Of a DNA stretch of 37,213 nt, positions 3,602 to 30,537 are shown piece by piece (the stretch's first letter is position 1; each line of letters begins with the position of its first letter). A model generated the notes under the pieces. That model did not search any database, was not told the origin of the DNA, and saw only the letters and a program-made list of their open reading frames with translations. This DNA comes from an uncultured Clostridia bacterium (lineage in GTDB: Bacteria > Bacillota > Clostridia > Oscillospirales > Acutalibacteraceae): positions 1-37,213 of the forward strand of contig CAMOVW010000006.1 of assembly GCA_946627725.1 (NCBI GenBank). Reading direction: 5' to 3'. The position numbers and the translations under genes were made by a program.

Positions 3602-3641
3602 AAAAGTAAGCCGGCGGGGGTCCTCCGCCGGTTGCTTTTTA
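3602..3641. terminator. Bidirectional terminator between converging genes
   Basis: CCGGCGG (3611-3617) and CCGCCGG (3625-3631) form a perfect seven-base stem followed by TTGCTTTTT on the plus strand and by CTTACTTTTA on the minus strand. It separates the HEAT gene from the long minus-strand array ending with DUF4250. Confidence 0.85.
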
Positions 3642-3650
3642 TCATTTGAT

Positions 3651-3833
3651 TTAACACTTTATAAACTGATTCCGTTGACGGTCGTAGAAATAACCGATCG
3701 CGGACAGCTTCGCTTCCAGCGCGGCGCGGTCCTCGTTGAGATCTTCGCAAAGCGCGTCGAGATCTGCGTAATAATCCCGCAGTTTCGTATTCACCACGCT
3801 CATCAGCAAAAGCGGGTCTTTGGGCAGAATCAT
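3651..3833 (-). CDS. DUF4250 family protein
   Basis: The 60-aa sequence matches the DUF4250 pattern closely: 'LPKDPLLLMSVVNTKLRDYYADLDALCEDL', then 'DRAALEAKLSAIGYFYD...NQF'. It is a short soluble helical protein of unknown function, common in Clostridia, and length is normal for the family. It is the last gene of the operon DUF3793, ABC, ABC, membrane protein, DUF4250, and the bidirectional terminator follows within ten bases of its stop. The ATG at 3833 has GGAGCGTGAT upstream. Confidence 0.85.
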   Translation of the reverse strand: MILPKDPLLLMSVVNTKLRDYYADLDALCEDLNEDRAALEAKLSAIGYFYDRQRNQFIKC

Positions 3834-3875: not shown

Positions 3876-4355
3876 TTAAAAAAGCAATACTACGAGTCCG
3901 GCTACTACGGCGGCTCCCGCGATCCAGATCAGCGTCAGGATCCCGCGCTTTTTCAGTATTTGCGGCCATGTCTGAACGAACGGGATGCCCTCCGTGCCGG
4001 GGATGATCCAGAATTTGCTGTGCCCGACCCACAGGCGGTCGATCACGACGCCGTCGTACCAGTTCATGACTTCAAGGAACAGCAGCGCCTGCCAATAGGC
4101 CGTTCCGAACGTGCTTGCGCCGTTCCAGAGCCCGATGATCAGCACCAGCACGGCCAGCAGAACAAGGAGGAACGGGATCATGAACCGTTTTCTTTTTTTC
4201 GCAACCGTTTCCCGGTCCGTCAGACCAAGCTCAAACACTTTTTCCTGCACCGGCTTCGGGTAAAAAAACAGGCCGTTCAGCGCGTTGTTCCCCACGCCTA
4301 ACTTTACCATAAGCGTAAACAGCCCGCAAAACAGGATCAGTTGTAAAACGATCAT
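3876..4355 (-). CDS. Small polytopic membrane protein (paralogue family A)
   Basis: 159 aa with about four hydrophobic segments: residues 1-20, 60-80, 83-100 and 140-159. It shares with the protein at 16678-17169 the soluble block '(K/R)TVELGL/KVFELGLT' before the second segment and the pattern 'D..(V/I)DR.W..H(S/T)K.W.IPGTE' between segments three and four. The protein at 15270-15770 is a more distant third copy. No known function is recognised. It sits 24 bases after the second ABC gene and is clearly in that operon, so it may be an accessory membrane subunit of the transporter. Confidence 0.75.
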   Translation of the reverse strand: MIVLQLILFCGLFTLMVKLGVGNNALNGLFFYPKPVQEKVFELGLTDRETVAKKRKRFMIPFLLVLLAVLVLIIGLWNGASTFGTAYWQALLFLEVMNWYDGVVIDRLWVGHSKFWIIPGTEGIPFVQTWPQILKKRGILTLIWIAGAAVVAGLVVLLF

Positions 4356-4379: not shown

Positions 4380-6122
4380 TTATATTCTCCACTTCATAGA
4401 GGCAGATTGCAGAGAGAGCATCCGGGCGAAAAGCCCGTTTTCGTTTTGCAGGAGTTCTGCGGGCGAGCCTTCTTCTGCGACCTTGCCGTCCTTCAACACC
4501 ACGATCTTATCCGCCGCCTCCACGGTGCGCATCCGGTGCGCGATAACGAGGACCGTTTTACCGGCGAGCAGACGCGAAAGCGCGCCCTGCACCTTTGTTT
4601 CGTTTTCCACGTCAAGCGAAGCGGTCGCCTCATCAAGAAGTACGATCGGCGCGTCCTTTAAGAGCGCGCGGGCAATGGAGATGCGCTGACGCTCGCCGCC
4701 GGAGAGCTTTGTGCCGTTTTCTCCGATCGCCGTTTGATACCCGTCCGGAAGCTTTTCAACGAATTCGTCGCAATTCGCCGCCTTTGCCGCCGCGAGGACT
4801 TCCTCGTCGGTCGCGCCGTGTCTGCCGAGACGGATGTTCTCCATAACGGTATCGTCAAACAGCACGACGTCCTGAAATACCATGGAATAATCGGTAAGAA
4901 GCACTTCCGGATCAACGGTCGATATGTCCACGCCACCGACTTTTATCTTTCCGCCGTTTATATCCCACAACCGCGCCGCAAGACGTGCGCAGGTGCTCTT
5001 TCCGGAGCCGGAGGGACCTACGAGCGCCGTGACTTCGCCCTCTTTGGCGGTGAAACTGACGCCGCGGAGCACCTCGTGATCGTCGTAGGCGAAGCTGACG
5101 TTTTCAAACGTGATGTCGTGTCCGTCGGGTTTGAACGTTTCCGCGCCTTCCGCCGTCGGCGTGTCGTAGATTTCATTGAGACGGCTTGCGGAAACCTGAG
5201 AAACGAACATCTCAGCGATCAGTGCGAGCGACTGGTCGAACGGAGCGTAGATACGGGTGATGACCATGAGGAACATGAACATCAGCATAAAGTCGATCTT
5301 TCCGGACAGGATGAGCGCCGCGCCGGTGAGGATCGTCGTCGCTACGCCGAGACGCATGATGACCGAAGCGCCGTTGACGAACAGACCGATCGTCAGCTCT
5401 CCGCTTCTCATTGTTTTCTCAACACGGTCGATCTTCTTGTTCAGGCGGTCAAGATACTCTTTTTCGCGGTTGGTCGCTCTGATCTCGCGGATGTTCTCAA
5501 GCGATTCCTGAATATTGTCGGATACCGCCACAGCTTCGGATTTCAGTTTTACGGAAGCGCGCTTCTGCAGCTTCCTGCTTCCGAAAAGCAGGATGAACGC
5601 GACAGGAACGCCCCACAGGCAGGCGATCGCCATGCGCCAGTCGTAGATAAGCAGCACGACCGCGATGATCGCCGTTGAAATATACGCGCCGTAAAGGTAA
5701 CCGAGGCAGTGAGACCATACATGCTCCAAACGGTTGACGTCGCCCATGACGGTCTCGGTCAGATCCGCGAGATCGCGTTTTCCGAAATATCCGAGCGGAA
5801 GTCTGCGCAGCCGTTCCGCAAGCGTGATGCGCGTGTCTTTTATCTCTCTGTAAACAAGTCCGTAGGTATTATGATACTGCTGCAGGTGCGTAATAAACGA
5901 CAAAACGACGAACGCGGCGACAAGCCCGATAAAGAGCCATGCGTTCGGCAGAGCGTCGCCGCCCGTCAGCGTGTTCATATACTTCTGCATCAGAAAATAC
6001 AGGATGCCCATGCCCGCCATCATAAGTAAATTGACGACCACGGTCCAGACGGCGCCGACTCTCGTGTTTCTTAAGCCCTTATCGGTCAGCGCGTATTTCT
6101 TTTTCAGTTTTTCCCCCATCAT
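4380..6122 (-). CDS. ABC transporter half-subunit, exporter fold (Irt/Ybt-like), second of pair
   Basis: A 580-aa fused membrane and ATPase half-transporter. Six membrane segments fill residues 1-310. The ATPase follows with Walker A 'GPSGSGKST', signature 'LSGGERQR', Walker B 'IVLLDEATASLD' and switch 'VIAHRM'. It starts two bases after the stop of the other half-transporter, so the two surely form a heterodimer. In this exporter-fold family the pairs nearest in organisation are IrtAB and YbtPQ, which import metallophores despite their exporter architecture. The DtxR-type site before DUF3793 supports a metal-related role. Multidrug or peptide export remains possible. Confidence 0.85.
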   Translation of the reverse strand: MMGEKLKKKYALTDKGLRNTRVGAVWTVVVNLLMMAGMGILYFLMQKYMNTLTGGDALPNAWLFIGLVAAFVVLSFITHLQQYHNTYGLVYREIKDTRITLAERLRRLPLGYFGKRDLADLTETVMGDVNRLEHVWSHCLGYLYGAYISTAIIAVVLLIYDWRMAIACLWGVPVAFILLFGSRKLQKRASVKLKSEAVAVSDNIQESLENIREIRATNREKEYLDRLNKKIDRVEKTMRSGELTIGLFVNGASVIMRLGVATTILTGAALILSGKIDFMLMFMFLMVITRIYAPFDQSLALIAEMFVSQVSASRLNEIYDTPTAEGAETFKPDGHDITFENVSFAYDDHEVLRGVSFTAKEGEVTALVGPSGSGKSTCARLAARLWDINGGKIKVGGVDISTVDPEVLLTDYSMVFQDVVLFDDTVMENIRLGRHGATDEEVLAAAKAANCDEFVEKLPDGYQTAIGENGTKLSGGERQRISIARALLKDAPIVLLDEATASLDVENETKVQGALSRLLAGKTVLVIAHRMRTVEAADKIVVLKDGKVAEEGSPAELLQNENGLFARMLSLQSASMKWRI

Positions 6123-6123
6123 T

Positions 6124-7935
6124 TCAAACGCCCTCCTTTACCGACGCGATCTTCCATTGGACTGCCTGATTGTATTCTTTCCACATGCGCTCGTACAGCC
6201 CGCCGGCGCATGATAATTCGTCGTGCGTGCCTGTTTCAACGATATGTCCCTGATCGAGCACCACGATTTTGTCCGCGCCGACGACGGTGGAGAGTCTGTG
6301 CGCGATCATAATGACCGTACGGCCTCGCGTCAGCGTTTTCAGCGCTTTCTGGATCAGCGCCTCGTTTTCGGGATCGGCAAACGCCGTTGCCTCATCGAGC
6401 ACGATGATCGGCGCGTCCTTCAAAATCGCGCGGGCGAGCGCCACGCGCTGCTGTTCGCCGCCCGACAGATACGTTCCTTCCGAGCCGATCAGAGTGTCTA
6501 TCCCGTTCGGGAGTTTTTCTATAATATCGTCGCACTGCGCGGCGTGAAGTGCCGAAAGGACTTCTTCTCTTGAAGCGTCCGGACGCGCGGCGCGGACGTT
6601 TTCGAGTATCGAGGTCTTGAACAGGCGGGTATTCTGGAACACGAACGCGACCTTATCCATCAGAACGTGCGGATCGATATCCTTCACGTTGACGCCGCCG
6701 ACAAGGATCTGCCCGGATGAAACGTCCCAGAAACGCGGAATCAGACTTGCCGCCGTCGTCTTTCCTCCTCCCGACGGACCGACAAGCGCGACCGTCTGAC
6801 CGGGCAGGACCTTGAACGAAACATGATCGAGCGCCGGAAGTTCAGCGCCGTCATAAGTAAACGTAACGTCTTTGAACTCCACGCCGTTGTCCTTCGGCGT
6901 CTGCGGATCATCCGTTATTTCAAGCGTCGGCGCGTTCATGACTGTATTGATACGGGCAAGCGCGTTTTTGGCGAGGATCGTACCGGCTGACGCGAACATG
7001 ATCCGGGCGAGCGCCGTGGAAACGATCGCCGAGAATACCGCGTAGAAAGCGAAGTTGGTGATGAATCCGGCGAAATTTCCGGCAGAAAGCGCCGACGGGG
7101 CGATCAGAAGCACCGCGGGCACGAGGAAGATGAACACGCCTTCCGTAGCGGTTAGGTTGACCGACTGAGGAACGCGGCAAACGCCTCTGGTGTATCTTTC
7201 CGCTTTGGCGCTGTAATCCTCTATCGCCGCTTTGAACGCCTTAAAGGAATACACGGTCTGCTGAAAGACCTTGACGACGGGGATGCCGCGCACGTATTCC
7301 GTGCCGGCTTTGCTCATAGCGTCCTGCGCCTGCTGATATTCCATCATCAGCTTCGCGTTTTTACCTCCCATCATCGAAAACATTGCAAGAACCGATATCA
7401 CGGCGGCAAGCAGGCAGGCGAGCCCCATGCGCCAGTCGAATACGAACATTAAAACGATCATGGCGATGAACATCGCCGCCGTTCCGACGATGTCTGCGAG
7501 ATTGTGTGCGAGCAGCGTTTCCGTCTCTCCCGCGCCGCCGTCAAGACGGTTGCGAAGCAGCCCCGACGCGTTGTTGTCAAAAAAGCCGAGCGGCGTTTTC
7601 ATCAGGTGAGCGACGCCCTGTTTGCGAATATTCGCGGCGGTGCGGAACGCCGAAAGATGCGTGCACATCAGCGCGGCGAAATATACGATGATACCGCCGA
7701 AGGAAAAGCCGAACGCCATCCAGCCGTATTTTGCGATCTGGGTGGCCTCGGTCCAGTCCGGAGCGACGCTGATCAGATCCCTTGCCGCCAGCCAGATACA
7801 GAAGTAGGGAATCATCCCCATGACCATTGCGACAGCTGAAAGGAACATCCCAAAAAACGTCAGAACCTTATACTTCCCGGCGTAGCCTATCAGCACAGAG
7901 ACTTCGTTTGGTTGCTTTGTTTTTTTCTCTTTCAT
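6124..7935 (-). CDS. ABC transporter half-subunit, exporter fold (Irt/Ybt-like), first of pair
   Basis: A 603-aa half-transporter with six membrane segments (residues 20-320) and an ATPase domain: Walker A 'GPSGGGKTT', signature 'LSGGEQQR', Walker B 'IIVLDEATAFADPENE' and switch 'MIAHRLSTV'. The 'ATAFADPE.E' form after Walker B, in place of the usual 'ATSALD', is from memory a feature of the IrtA/YbtP-like siderophore transporter group. No extra siderophore-interaction domain is fused, unlike mycobacterial IrtA. It follows DUF3793 by 25 bases. Substrate is not known; a metal chelate or a product of the neighbouring enzymes is a reasonable guess. Confidence 0.87.
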   Translation of the reverse strand: MKEKKTKQPNEVSVLIGYAGKYKVLTFFGMFLSAVAMVMGMIPYFCIWLAARDLISVAPDWTEATQIAKYGWMAFGFSFGGIIVYFAALMCTHLSAFRTAANIRKQGVAHLMKTPLGFFDNNASGLLRNRLDGGAGETETLLAHNLADIVGTAAMFIAMIVLMFVFDWRMGLACLLAAVISVLAMFSMMGGKNAKLMMEYQQAQDAMSKAGTEYVRGIPVVKVFQQTVYSFKAFKAAIEDYSAKAERYTRGVCRVPQSVNLTATEGVFIFLVPAVLLIAPSALSAGNFAGFITNFAFYAVFSAIVSTALARIMFASAGTILAKNALARINTVMNAPTLEITDDPQTPKDNGVEFKDVTFTYDGAELPALDHVSFKVLPGQTVALVGPSGGGKTTAASLIPRFWDVSSGQILVGGVNVKDIDPHVLMDKVAFVFQNTRLFKTSILENVRAARPDASREEVLSALHAAQCDDIIEKLPNGIDTLIGSEGTYLSGGEQQRVALARAILKDAPIIVLDEATAFADPENEALIQKALKTLTRGRTVIMIAHRLSTVVGADKIVVLDQGHIVETGTHDELSCAGGLYERMWKEYNQAVQWKIASVKEGV

Positions 7936-7960: not shown

Positions 7961-8512
7961 TCAATCGGCCACGATCAGCCGTTCGATGCTTGTTCCGTTA
8001 GCCCATTGCGAGCAGTAAACGGCAGTACACTTTTTGTATTTTGCAAAAGTCTTTTTTGCCGCCGCTTCGTCACCGTAGACCTTCCAGAAGCCCACGCACT
8101 TGCAGTTTGCCGCGCCGAGTGCAATAAAGCCGCAAACGTCCTCCGGCGGGTACCCGAGGAACAATCCCACTTCATGCGGGAAACCTGCGTTGCTGCAAAG
8201 TCTTTGCCGCAGGTTTGTCACGCAACGCGCCGGACATTCCGGGGAATAGCCATGATCTTCCAGAACCTTTCGCGCTGACGGTTTCTGCAGATCATCCGCC
8301 AGTTTTTTCGGGCGGTACAAATACAGCAGCGCCCGGTTTTCCCGGCAGCGCAGCGGAATGATAAGCAAGCCCTTTGATGCGAACTGACGATTGAACGCGC
8401 GCAGTTCATCCCGAAGTTCCTTTTCGTCCGTATAAGCGACAGAAAACAGGTTTCCCGTTTTCATTCCTGCCAACGTCGGTGAACAGTGACGGATCAATAC
8501 TTCTTCTGACAT
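7961..8512 (-). CDS. DUF3793 family protein
   Basis: The 183-aa protein has the family landmarks: 'HCSPTLAGMKTGNLFS' at the start, 'LLYLYRPKKL' in the middle, then 'FPHEVGLFLGYPPEDVCGFI' and 'GFWKVYGDE'. These proteins are soluble, of unknown activity, and in my experience often lie near feo and flavodoxin genes in Clostridia. It is the first gene of the ABC operon. The ribosome site AAGGGGG lies eight bases before the ATG. A TTAGCGTTTGCTAA palindrome just upstream matches the palindromes at the feo/dtxR locus of this window, so it is probably metal-repressed. Confidence 0.88.
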   Translation of the reverse strand: MSEEVLIRHCSPTLAGMKTGNLFSVAYTDEKELRDELRAFNRQFASKGLLIIPLRCRENRALLYLYRPKKLADDLQKPSARKVLEDHGYSPECPARCVTNLRQRLCSNAGFPHEVGLFLGYPPEDVCGFIALGAANCKCVGFWKVYGDEAAAKKTFAKYKKCTAVYCSQWANGTSIERLIVAD

Positions 8513-8529: not shown

Positions 8530-8581
8530 GTTAGCGTTTGCTAACTTGTGAGTAAAAAAATAAAATTTGCTTAACAGTCAA
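8530..8581 (-). promoter_or_regulatory. DtxR-type operator with promoter for the DUF3793-ABC operon
   Basis: GTTAGCGTTTGCTAAC (8530-8545) is a perfect six-base-arm palindrome of the same TTAGC-N4-GCTAA form as two sites between feoA and the DtxR-family gene. Upstream on the minus strand a TTGACT (8581-8576) could be a -35 element; the -10 is a T-rich stretch without a clear match. The palindrome would then lie at or just after the transcription start, a good position for repression. Confidence 0.7.
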
Positions 8582-16677: not shown

Positions 16678-17169
16678 TTATCTGATGATAAGGCACATGA
16701 TTCCGGACAGCGCAGCCGATATAACCGCCATTCCGGCCGTACCCATGATCCATTTTCTCTTTTTATCTGAGGACGAGATATAGGGCTTCAAATCTTCGGT
16801 CCCCGGAATGTCCCATGCCTTTGTGTGTTCAACCCAATACCCATCGATCAGAAAGCGGTCTATGAGATTCATGATCGACAGGATGACGAACATGTGACAG
16901 AAGCCCTGAATGAATCCTCTCGCACCGTTGATCACATAAACACATACCAGAACGTAAATCAGATACCCGGGTACGCAGAGCCCTTTGAATACAAGGCCCC
17001 TCTTCCGAATCTTGCCGGAGGAAGTCAACCCAAGTTCAACTGTGCGCTTTTGAACTGCATCGCTGTACAGATGGACCATCCCGACCGCCCCACGGCGAAT
17101 GCCGATCGCACAAATGAGATATAACAGAACTCCCAGTCCCAGTCCTTCAAGCAACAGCTTTACCGCCAT
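16678..17169 (-). CDS. Small polytopic membrane protein (paralogue family A)
   Basis: 163 aa with four hydrophobic segments: residues 5-25, 62-82, 85-105 and 140-162. It shares 'VELGLTS' and 'DRFLIDGYWVEHTKAWDIPGTEDL' with the copy at 3876-4355 ('DRLWVGHSKFWIIPGTEG'). The conserved soluble loop with His, Lys, Trp and 'IPGTE' between segments three and four suggests a specific function, as opposed to a generic membrane anchor. It begins two bases after the stop of the ATC hydrolase gene, with GGAGGAG as ribosome site, and is the last gene of that run. Confidence 0.72.
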   Translation of the reverse strand: MAVKLLLEGLGLGVLLYLICAIGIRRGAVGMVHLYSDAVQKRTVELGLTSSGKIRKRGLVFKGLCVPGYLIYVLVCVYVINGARGFIQGFCHMFVILSIMNLIDRFLIDGYWVEHTKAWDIPGTEDLKPYISSSDKKRKWIMGTAGMAVISAALSGIMCLIIR

Positions 17170-26891: not shown

Positions 26892-29378
26892 TCAGATCTT
26901 CTTCGTCAGCTTTGTGGCTTCCTTGTATTTACGGAAGAACAGCATATATACCATGCACGCTATAATCGCCAGCGCGCAGATGAAGCCGATCACGTTGAAC
27001 CTGCCGGTGAACGCGCCGCCGATCTGGTTGATGCACAGAGAAACCGCGTAAGCGAAGCCGCACTGGTATGCTATTGCGAACCAAGTCCATTTTGCGTTGT
27101 TCATCTCGCGCTTGATGGCGCCGATGGCCGCAAAGCAGGGCGCGCACAGCAGATTGAACACCAGGAAGGAGAAGCCGGTAATGCCGGTGAACGCCTGATG
27201 CAGCGCCTGCCAGGCGGTGAGCTCGCCGCCGCCGTAGAGGATGCCCATGGTGCCCACGATGTTCTCCTTGGCCACCAGACCGGTGATGGAGGCAACCGCC
27301 GCCTGCCACGTGCCCCAGCCGAGCGGGGCGAAGATCCAGGCGATCACAGAGCCGATGCGGGCCAGGATAGAGAGATCCAGCTCATCCTCCGCCAGCATAC
27401 GGAAACCGTCTGCGGTGAAGCCGAAGTAAGAGGTGAACCACACGAGGATGGTGGAGAGCAGAATGATGGTACCTGCCTTTTTAATGAAGCTCCAGCCGCG
27501 CTCCCACATAGAACGGAGCACGTTGCCGAGCGTGGGCCAGTGATAGGCGGGCAGCTCCATCACGAAGGGGGCCGGGTCGCCCGCGAACATCTTCGTCTTC
27601 TTCAGCATGATACCGGAAACCACGATGGCCGCCATGCCGATGAAATAGGCGGAAGTGGAGATCCACGCGCTGCCGCCGAAGATCGCGCCCGCGATCATGG
27701 CGATAAAGGGCACCTTGGCGCCGCAGGGAATGAAGGTGGTGGTCATGATGGTCATGCGCCGGTCGCGTTCGTTTTCGATGGTACGGCTGGCCATGATGCC
27801 GGGCACACCGCAGCCCACGCCGATGAGCATGGGTATAAAGGATTTGCCCGAAAGGCCGAACTTGCGGAAGATGCGGTCCAGCACAAAGGCGATACGCGCC
27901 ATGTAGCCGCATGCTTCGAGGAAGGCGAGCATCAGGAAGAGCACCAGCATCTGGGGCACGAAGCCCAGCACCGCGCCGACGCCCGCCACGATACCGTCAA
28001 GGATCAGGCCCTGCAGCCATTCGGCGGCGCCCGCTTTTTCGAGCAAATTGCCCACAAGCACCGGCACGCCGGGTACCCACACGCCGTAGTCGGCGGGATC
28101 GGGCGCTTCAAAGCCTTTTTCGGTGAAGTAGTCTTTCGCCTCCACGAAGGTCATGCCCACGGTCTCTTCCTCGTCGGCGTCCTGCGGGATAGCGTCGTAA
28201 TAGGCGGTCAGGGTGCTGATCTCCAGCGTCTCCTCATCCTCCACGTCCACCGTGGCGGTTTTTTCCGTGGGAACAAAGGCGTCAAGCTCCGCTTTTGCGG
28301 CCTCTTCGTCAAAATCCTCCGCCTCGGGGTCTAATTCCGTAAACGCCTGTACCGCGTTCAGGGCGTTGGTATACTCGTCGTTTACTTCCTCATACGCCTT
28401 GGTGCCGATGCCCAGCAGGTGATACCCGTCGCCGAAAAGCCCGTCGTTGGCCCAGTCGGTCGCGGGCGCGCCAACGGCCACCATGGCGATCCAATAGACG
28501 AGGAACATCACGGCGGCAAAAATGGGAAGGCCCAGCCAGCGGTTGGTGACCACCCTGTCGATTTTATCGGAGGTGGTCAGGCTGCCTTTGTTCTTCTTTT
28601 TATAGCAGGATTTTATGATCTGGGCGATGTACACGTAGCGCTCGTTTGTGATGATGCTTTCGGCGTCGTCGTCCAGCTCGGTTTCCGCCGCGGCGATATC
28701 CTTTTCAATGTGCGAGAGCGTATCGGCGGGGATATTCAGCTGTTCCAGCACCTTGTCGTCCCGCTCGAACACCTTGATCGCGTACCAGCGCTGCTGCTCC
28801 TCGGGCATGTTATGGACGACCGCTTCTTCAATGTGCGCCAGCGCGTGCTCCACGGGACCGGAGAACGTGTGCATCGGAACGGTCTTCGCGTTGTTAGCGG
28901 CTTCAATGGCAGCTTCAGCCGCTTCCGTAACGCCGGTTCCCTTCAACGCGGAGATCTCCACGACCTTGCATCCGAGCTGTTTGCCGAGCTGTGCCGTGTC
29001 GATCCTGTCGCCGTTCTTTTTCACCACGTCCATCATATTGATGGCCAGCACCACGGGGATGCCCAGCTCCGTAAGCTGCGTGGTCAGGTAAAGGTTACGC
29101 TCGAGGTTCGTGCCGTCGATGATGTTCAGAATGGCGTCGGGGCGTTCGCTGATCAGATAGTTTCTGGCAACCACTTCCTCCAGCGTATAGGGGGAAAGGG
29201 AGTAGATGCCGGGAAGGTCGGTGATCGTTACGTCGTCGTGTTTTTTCAGTTTGCCTTCCTTTTTCTCCACGGTCACGCCCGGCCAGTTGCCAACAAATTG
29301 GTTGGAGCCGGTGAGCGCGTTGAACAGCGTGGTTTTGCCGCTGTTCGGGTTGCCCGCTAAAGCGATTCGTATATTCAT
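26892..29378 (-). CDS. feoB: Ferrous iron transporter FeoB
   Basis: 828 aa. The N-terminal G domain has G1 'GNPNSGKTT' (about residues 9-17), G3 'DLPGIYS' (54-60) and G4 'NMMD' (114-117). The helical GDI region follows, then the membrane domain with Gate-type segments ('PMLIGVGCGVPGIMASRTIENERDRR'). Between the first membrane helix and the rest, residues 325-430 hold a long acidic insertion rich in Glu and Asp ('DPEAEDFDEEAAKAELDAF'), larger than in E. coli FeoB. FeoB imports Fe(II) across the cell membrane. It is downstream of two feoA genes and under the DtxR-type sites. Confidence 0.97.
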   Translation of the reverse strand: MNIRIALAGNPNSGKTTLFNALTGSNQFVGNWPGVTVEKKEGKLKKHDDVTITDLPGIYSLSPYTLEEVVARNYLISERPDAILNIIDGTNLERNLYLTTQLTELGIPVVLAINMMDVVKKNGDRIDTAQLGKQLGCKVVEISALKGTGVTEAAEAAIEAANNAKTVPMHTFSGPVEHALAHIEEAVVHNMPEEQQRWYAIKVFERDDKVLEQLNIPADTLSHIEKDIAAAETELDDDAESIITNERYVYIAQIIKSCYKKKNKGSLTTSDKIDRVVTNRWLGLPIFAAVMFLVYWIAMVAVGAPATDWANDGLFGDGYHLLGIGTKAYEEVNDEYTNALNAVQAFTELDPEAEDFDEEAAKAELDAFVPTEKTATVDVEDEETLEISTLTAYYDAIPQDADEEETVGMTFVEAKDYFTEKGFEAPDPADYGVWVPGVPVLVGNLLEKAGAAEWLQGLILDGIVAGVGAVLGFVPQMLVLFLMLAFLEACGYMARIAFVLDRIFRKFGLSGKSFIPMLIGVGCGVPGIMASRTIENERDRRMTIMTTTFIPCGAKVPFIAMIAGAIFGGSAWISTSAYFIGMAAIVVSGIMLKKTKMFAGDPAPFVMELPAYHWPTLGNVLRSMWERGWSFIKKAGTIILLSTILVWFTSYFGFTADGFRMLAEDELDLSILARIGSVIAWIFAPLGWGTWQAAVASITGLVAKENIVGTMGILYGGGELTAWQALHQAFTGITGFSFLVFNLLCAPCFAAIGAIKREMNNAKWTWFAIAYQCGFAYAVSLCINQIGGAFTGRFNVIGFICALAIIACMVYMLFFRKYKEATKLTKKI

Positions 29379-29441
29379 GATTGTATATTCCTTTCTGCCG
29401 ATGCCGGCTTTGAATGATTCGCGTACGCTAACCGATGTCTG

Positions 29442-29474: not shown

Positions 29475-29696
29475 TTATTCGATCTCGATCATTTCCGCAT
29501 CCGCTTTGCGGATCGAAAGCTCATAGCCACGCACCGTAACCTCCACCGGGTCGCCGAGCGGCGCCACTTTGCGGATATACACCGGGGTGTGCTTGGTGAT
29601 CCCCATGTCCATGATGCGGCGTTTCACCGCGCCTTCGCCGTGGAGCTTCACCACTGTGACTGTTTCGCCGATGTTCGCGTCTCTGAGTGTTTTCAC
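29475..29696 (-). CDS. feoA: FeoA domain protein
   Basis: 73 aa with the SH3-like FeoA pattern: 'LRDANIGETVTVVKLHGEGAVKRRIMDMGI', 'TPVYIRKVAPLGDPVEVTVRGYELSIRKADAEMIEIE'. The 'R.(L/I)..MGI..G/T.V' and 'PLGDP(V/I)....G..L.(L/I)R' blocks are the hallmark. FeoA is a small cytosolic partner of FeoB. It is the second of two tandem feoA genes, 27 bases after the first, with GGAGGAAAC before the ATG. Confidence 0.93.
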   Translation of the reverse strand: MKTLRDANIGETVTVVKLHGEGAVKRRIMDMGITKHTPVYIRKVAPLGDPVEVTVRGYELSIRKADAEMIEIE

Positions 29697-29723: not shown

Positions 29724-29936
29724 TTATACCATAATTTTACGGGCAAGCGCTTTGTCCACGGCTACGCGGCTCTCCTTGACCTTTACGATCAGGTTGCCCG
29801 CCAACGTACTTACGATACAGACCTCGCCGCCCACATTGAAGCCCAGCGTTTCCAGATGCTGTTTGACCTCCGGACTGCCGCCGATTTTCTTGATGATCTG
29901 CGGCTGACCGACGTCGGCCATGCTGAGAGGTATCAT
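29724..29936 (-). CDS. feoA: FeoA domain protein, first copy
   Basis: 70 aa, a second FeoA-type SH3 domain: 'MADVGQPQIIKKIGGSPEVKQHLETLGFNVGGEVCIVSTLAGNLIVKVKESRVAVDKALARKIMV'-like pattern with 'LETLGF..GGEV' and 'VKESRVA(V/L)D..LA..I'. This is the variant that accompanies a standard FeoA in many Firmicute feo operons. It is the first gene of the operon, with GGGGGAAATA before the ATG, directly downstream of the operator region. Confidence 0.92.
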   Translation of the reverse strand: MIPLSMADVGQPQIIKKIGGSPEVKQHLETLGFNVGGEVCIVSTLAGNLIVKVKESRVAVDKALARKIMV

Positions 29937-29959
29937 ATTATTTCCCCCTGTTTATATTA

Positions 29960-30074
29960 TTAGCATAAGCTAACTAATGTCTTAAAAGAAATGGTTAGTG
30001 AATCCTAACCGACAAATCGAAGAAAAGTGGTTAGTAATTCCTAACCACCCCATATTATAGTTAGCTTCCGCTAA
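29960..30074. promoter_or_regulatory. Four DtxR/MntR-type palindromes between feoA and the regulator gene
   Basis: TTAGCATAAGCTAA (29960-29973), GGTTAGTGAATCCTAACC (29993-30010), GTGGTTAGTAATTCCTAACCAC (30027-30048) and TTAGCTTCCGCTAA (30061-30074). All are inverted repeats of a TTAG half-site with four- or six-base centres. The multiplicity and position between a metal transporter operon and a DtxR-family gene point strongly to the regulator encoded at 30166 as the ligand. Confidence 0.85.
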
Positions 30075-30082
30075 TTTGTCAA
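30054..30082 (-). promoter_or_regulatory. Consensus promoter of the feo operon
   Basis: On the minus strand TTGACA (30082-30077), 17 bases, TATAAT (30059-30054) is a perfect sigma-A promoter. Its spacer is filled by the palindrome ATTAGCGGAAGCTAAC, so a bound repressor would block polymerase. The third palindrome lies over the expected transcription start. Confidence 0.88.
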
Positions 30083-30165: not shown

Positions 30166-30537
30166 ATGGCGTTGCATGAATCCGGAGAGATGTATCTGGA
30201 AACAATCTATATTCTTACGCAACGGTCCGATTCCGTCCGCAGCATTGACGTCGGCGAGTATATGGGGTATTCAAAACCGTCCGTCAGCCGGGCCGTCGGT
30301 CTGTTGAAAAAAGACGGCTACATTGTTATAGATGAAAAAGGATATATCAACCTGACCGAAACGGGCAGACAGAAAGCAGAACAGATCTATGAACGCCATC
30401 TGATCCTTACTTCGTTGTTTCAGAATCTCGGCGTGGACGAGGAGACAGCCTCCGAGGACGCCTGCCGGATTGAGCACTATCTCAGCGATAAGACCTTCAA
30501 TGCGATTAAGGCGCATATGAACAAATACAAATCCTGA
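30166..30537 (+). CDS. DtxR/MntR-family metal-dependent transcriptional regulator
   Basis: 123 aa from the ATG at 30166, with the ribosome site GGGAGGTG; the track adds 30 residues from the promoter region. It begins 'MALHESGEMYLETIYILTQ', typical of the MntR/IdeR group. The winged helix 'VRSIDVGEYMGYSKPSVSRAVGLLKKDGYIVIDEKGYINLTETGR' follows, then the dimerisation/metal region with 'ERHLILTSLF', 'DEETASEDACRIEHYLSD'. The Glu, His and Cys residues in 'ERH' and 'DACRIEH' are those that bind Fe(II) or Mn(II) in the family. It lacks the SH3 domain of DtxR, as usual for Firmicutes. It is divergent from feo and probably represses feo and the DUF3793-ABC operon. Confidence 0.93.
   Translation: MALHESGEMYLETIYILTQRSDSVRSIDVGEYMGYSKPSVSRAVGLLKKDGYIVIDEKGYINLTETGRQKAEQIYERHLILTSLFQNLGVDEETASEDACRIEHYLSDKTFNAIKAHMNKYKS

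Follow-up and report, generated by a model that had tools for sequence, protein, structure and literature searches.

The window, a 37,213-nucleotide stretch of DNA from an uncultured Clostridia bacterium, carries directly upstream of its DUF3793 gene a palindrome that very probably marks this gene and an importer-like ABC transporter pair as part of an iron-starvation response in many gut bacteria. We interpret this palindrome, with good confidence, as the operator of a DtxR-family and probably Fe(II)-activated repressor over the DUF3793-ABC operon, shared with the feo operon. When iron is sufficient, a repressor dimer bound a short way ahead of the DUF3793 start codon would keep the DUF3793-ABC1-ABC2-membrane protein-DUF4250 operon switched off, and feoA-feoA-feoB likewise. 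Iron starvation would release the repressor, and the ABC pair would import iron-siderophores by means of an exporter fold, in the manner of IrtAB/YbtPQ. A single operator would in this way bring into the iron regulon of anaerobic gut Clostridia both the widespread DUF3793 family and a candidate siderophore importer; this bears on how these bacteria may acquire siderophores. A literature search of incomplete coverage found no paper on this regulon.

Distribution of the palindrome

The exact form TTAGC-N4-GCTAA occurs 3 times in the window against 0.02 expected. It is seen in GTTAGCGTTTGCTAAC, whose end (minus strand) lies 17 bp ahead of the DUF3793 ATG at 8512, and, as the preliminary description had reported, in two of the four palindromes between feo and dtxR, the other two of which read TTAGT-N4-CCTAA (Table 1). 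A two-mismatch scan of the window returned 14 occurrences where 12.5 were expected by chance, so that the near-exact form alone is informative. The TTAG/CTAA halves lie 4 bp apart, as in DtxR-family sites, and the geometry is the single-dimer form published for IdeR: DtxR-family iron sensors recognise CCTAA repeats, one dimer can occupy two repeats with a 4-bp spacer, and in repressed genes the box lies over the start site or the −10 region (PMC10317159). A consensus scan gave no clear promoter for the DUF3793 site, which counts against the operator reading.

Table 1 Features of the window, with positions, strand and supporting evidence
Feature	Position	Strand	Evidence
DUF4250 protein, 60 aa, last gene of the operon	3651..3833	-	PF14056, E 1.1e-25; same order in L136
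Terminator-like hairpin after DUF4250	3611..3631	-	Consensus scan alone; such hairpins are common there by chance
Small membrane protein, 159 aa	3876..4355	-	No Pfam family; homologues downstream of the motif in G021, G043 and L136
ABC2, partner half-transporter, IrtB/YbtQ-like	4380..6122	-	Pfam; PDB matches
ABC1, half-transporter (membrane domain and ATPase), IrtA/YbtP-like	6124..7935	-	Pfam; PDB matches
DUF3793 protein, 183 aa, first gene of the operon	7961..8512	-	PF12672, E 6.5e-59; AlphaFold2 pLDDT 95
Putative operator palindrome GTTAGCGTTTGCTAAC	8530..8545	.	Sequence; genome excess; kept before DUF3793 in relatives
FeoB	26892..29378	-	PF02421 and related
FeoA, copy two	29475..29696	-	PF04023
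FeoA, copy one	29724..29936	-	PF04023
feo/dtxR palindrome 1	29959..29974	.	ATTAGCATAAGCTAAC; TTAGCATAAGCTAA from 29960
feo/dtxR palindrome 2	29994..30009	.	GTTAGTGAATCCTAAC; TTAGTGAATCCTAA from 29995
feo/dtxR palindrome 3	30030..30045	.	GTTAGTAATTCCTAAC; TTAGTAATTCCTAA from 30031
feo/dtxR palindrome 4	30060..30075	.	GTTAGCTTCCGCTAAT; TTAGCTTCCGCTAA from 30061
DtxR-family regulator, 123 aa, candidate binder of the sites	30166..30537	+	PF02742 and PF01325; alignment to DtxR

Pattern searches of the whole 3.58 Mb genome recovered nine exact copies of GTTAG-N6-CTAAC, where about one was expected from a first-order model built on dinucleotide frequencies in 122 kb of the genome (Poisson P ~1e-6), and a single copy of the reversed control pattern. 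The motif is therefore above random genome frequency, a point on which the preliminary description had staked its regulon. Three exact copies lie in the window (one before DUF3793, two at feo/dtxR) and two before a second DUF3793 gene followed by a flavodoxin gene; one each precedes a methyltransferase gene, a ferredoxin gene, and a small ORF ahead of a ZIP transporter gene (the names ZIP and PduL-like come from translations read by eye, with no database match behind them), and the last is inside a coding region, at its end. Among the copies with one mismatch are the two remaining feo sites of the window and, on contig C4, three sites at a second feo locus. Most exact copies precede metal genes, and at least four metal-related units of this genome have such sites (feo/dtxR, DUF3793-ABC, the second DUF3793 with its flavodoxin, and ZIP), in addition to the second feo locus with its near-matches and some isolated sites. 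The two-operon regulon proposed earlier holds, through conservation and genome excess, in its link between the DUF3793-ABC and feo operons, but is too small in its count.

Individual sites differ in their setting. The palindrome of the ZIP unit begins three bases after a perfect TATAAT, itself preceded at 17 bp by TTTACA, and so is placed as a repressor site would be. Between this unit and the DUF3793 unit of the same contig, C35, are two methyltransferase-like genes (L012:2674-4314), the second with a perfect motif directly upstream. On C108, a perfect motif (C108:7965-7980; L014:5966-5981) lies about 100 bp ahead of the gene for a 56-aa ferredoxin and upstream of promoter-like hexamers; we rejected this ferredoxin as a conserved target, a perfect site being found in 2 of the 30 family loci examined, its own included. 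Copies on C65 and C305 fall in coding sequence and look like chance. One-mismatch sites on C47, C120, C142 and C314 were likewise set aside as chance-like; that on C120 precedes a YbeY-like gene, and the short stretches read around the other three showed no recognisable metal gene. As the genome is a draft assembly (404 contigs, 93% complete, 3.4% contaminated), contigs other than that of the window could in part belong to another organism.

The motif recurs at the same genes in relatives. Summed over 60 genera of the family, GTTAGCN4GCTAAC was found 86 times and the reversed pattern 8 times, and across the order 50 of 59 genomes had GTTAG-N6-CTAAC. Among 84 ORFs at motif sites located without regard to genes in the fetched family loci, which were picked irrespective of function, 21 were FeoA, 12 FeoB and 9 DtxR-family, some of the 84 being spurious and a single locus being able to contribute several. 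The site is accordingly shared with feo both here and in relatives, as expected of an iron regulon. DUF3793 was detected in 16 of the 60 genera, including the bacterium's own, and the motif stands upstream of its operon in 15 of 15 relatives, where the next gene is usually a flavodoxin.

Public DUF3793 loci gave a similar picture: within 600 bp, the motif was perfect in 65 of 80 and matched at 9/10 in a further 8, compared with 0-6 motif-bearing loci for control windows of comparable size elsewhere in the same 80. A motif-blind count of palindromes in these loci ranked GTTAG-N6 first (40 loci), the best unrelated palindrome reaching 4, and the site consensus was (A/G)GTTAG(C/T)N4(G/A)CTAAC(C/T). 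Some of these loci also contain feo, dtxR or ZIP genes. The nearest public record, L135 (uncultured Clostridia bacterium, goat rumen), has DUF3793 with its site followed by the same ABC genes. At L090:7195-7482 a DUF2325 gene (Pfam) lies between the motif and DUF3793, with a similar ORF in L093; such an intervening gene may explain other sites placed 300–400 bp upstream. Adjacent motif copies tend to be spaced with a period of about 10.5–10.75 bp (P 0.008 over distinct spacings, the loci being partly related), such that bound dimers would sit on one face of the DNA.

The candidate regulator

Alignment to DtxR places Met9 and Cys100 of the window's DtxR-family protein at the positions of Met10 and Cys102, residues that raise iron selectivity and for which MntR has Asp or Asn, and Glu (PMC10317159). 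The protein does not pass the MntR cut-offs of NCBIfam models NF008273 (82.8 bits vs 153) and NF003025 (66 vs 138). Several observations count against it as the iron-activated reader of the sites: related regulators keep the Cys while the Met position varies, two ancillary DtxR ligands are replaced in our reading of the alignment, and the genome also encodes one Fur-family protein and, on contig C356, the second of its two DtxR-family genes above the Pfam cut-off. The C356 paralogue has a recognition helix nearly identical to that of the window regulator, and it is possible, if rather unlikely, that the same regulon is read by this paralogue or by both, perhaps in response to manganese. The occurrence of the motif at both ZIP and DtxR-family genes would suit such an arrangement, as would the fact that the best NCBIfam match of the window protein, below cut-off, is MntR. 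Against it, the window regulator adjoins four sites at an iron operon, feo, and has the iron-selective Met9 and Cys100 pair, and dtxR lies beside the motif repeatedly in relatives.

Control by the window's own regulator, as we prefer to read these sites, would resemble the DtxR/IdeR regulons of Actinobacteria, with their 19-bp box TTAGGTTAGSCTAACCTAA, in the family of the regulator, the TTAG/CTAA half-sites and the iron-uptake targets; with IdeR it also has in common the 4-bp spaced single-dimer form (PMC10317159). It differs in its consensus, GTTAG(C/T)-N4-(G/A)CTAAC, in sites that often come in pairs or more, in a regulator of 123 aa without the C-terminal SH3-like domain, and in targets that would include DUF3793 and this ABC pair. 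A further sequence between feoB and feoA (window 29418-29431), TTCGCGTACGCTAA, is one mismatch from the motif, and the second feo locus has the exact TTAGCCTTTGCTAA at the matching feoB/feoA place.

The ABC transporter pair

Orthologues of both half-transporters were found in 8 genera, the bacterium's own included, giving 9 pairs in relatives, all of which have the motif just upstream of ABC1 (8 perfect, and 9/10 in L111). Only one of these pairs, in L088, adjoins DUF3793 in the stretches read, so this evidence is separate from that of the DUF3793 sites. No copy of at least 9/10 was found within ~1.5 kb at 14 other ABC-exporter loci of the genome. As the motif exceeds expectation and is kept ahead of DUF3793 and of ABC orthologues across many genera, it is scarcely credible that the palindrome arose by chance and has no function, even if some genomic copies, such as those in coding sequence on C65 and C305, are chance-like, the more so as the ferredoxin site illustrates that conservation is not automatic.

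Full-length searches of the PDB were topped by two-domain P-glycoproteins because both of their halves match, and the membrane domains were for this reason also used alone. Among solved half-transporters, the best matches of full-length ABC1 and ABC2 were YbtP/YbtQ; for the membrane domains alone, the best PDB matches were IrtA and IrtB. The closest solved relatives of the pair are therefore IrtAB/YbtPQ, in contrast to two paralogues from the same genome, which best matched TM287 (3qf4_A) and 8wcw_A and had neither YbtPQ nor IrtAB among the best 60 matches listed for either. IrtAB is an exporter-fold protein that imports iron-loaded siderophores (PMC10246721), and YbtPQ too is described as an importer that resembles exporters (PMC10967856). 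Like the mycobactin importer IrtAB and the yersiniabactin importer YbtPQ, the window's transporter consists of two exporter-fold half-transporters; identity is low, and the N-terminal siderophore-interaction domain of IrtA is absent. From these PDB matches and its predicted regulation, the pair is probably an exporter-fold siderophore importer. No siderophore synthesis genes were seen in the stretches read.

The genes around the pair in relatives are of two kinds. Translations beside it at L112:8344-9264 and L115:8390-9004 read like TetR-type regulators, which are common neighbours of exporters and count against our interpretation, and an AraC-type regulator (Pfam) lies ahead of it at L118:8439-9398, a type of gene that accompanies some siderophore systems. 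The TetR-type neighbours, together with the exporters' fold of the pair and the many NCBIfam exporter models that match it below cut-off, would suit an exporter, of a siderophore, haem or a drug, that is nonetheless part of the iron regulon. We regard export as the less likely direction and doubtful overall, given that the best matches of the membrane domains are the importers IrtA and IrtB, that YbtP and YbtQ lead among half-transporters at full length, and that the gene ahead of one relative pair is AraC-type. Further half-transporter pairs in the same relative genome also have a motif upstream, perfect (L118:3321) or 9/10 (L112:1036).

DUF3793 and the remaining operon genes

DUF3793 is a clear member of PF12672, a family without known function that here gains an iron-regulon context, and our literature search, incomplete in coverage, found no paper on its function. 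The AlphaFold2 model is confident (mean pLDDT 95); Foldseek found no match to it in the PDB at E ≤ 0.001, phmmer found none for the sequence, and NCBIfam and PADLOC returned no match. Residues invariant in 47 DUF3793 sequences include Pro112-His113-Glu114, Asp125 and Cys162. From these residues and the regulon one might guess at a metal-handling role. More tentatively than the operator itself, we propose that DUF3793 may be a core protein of the iron-starvation response in gut Clostridia, with a fold so far absent from the PDB and possibly handling iron through His113-Glu114, Asp125 and Cys162, and that siderophore uptake through the exporter-fold ABC pair may be governed by this same DtxR-type operator of the single-dimer form.

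The gene identities found for this operon and for the feo/dtxR region agree with the preliminary description. Gaps of 1–42 bp separate the five genes of the operon. The metal-starvation context attributed to all of them in the preliminary description is borne out for DUF3793 and the ABC pair by conservation in relatives; for the small membrane protein and DUF4250 it comes from operon structure and a few relatives, which are consistent with their being regulon members. Two of the relatives sampled, G021 and G043, encode close homologues of the membrane protein (70–75%), each in a gene group that follows a perfect motif, and the public locus L136 has the order DUF3793, membrane protein, hydrolase-like gene, DUF4250, the one case among relatives of DUF4250 in a motif/DUF3793 context. 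The DUF3793 protein of L136 is 74% identical to that of the window. At L136:3578-3807, residues 1-59 of ABC1 are fused to the end of ABC2 (543-575), and the absence of the pair from that operon is either a deletion or an assembly error.

Two further copies of operon genes were observed in this genome. A third DUF3793 gene is a fragment of the last third only (G000:C17:18684-18788, 78% identical) with no motif nearby, and the small membrane protein at 3876-4355 has a paralogue (34% identical), likewise without a Pfam family, at 16678-17169 of the window.
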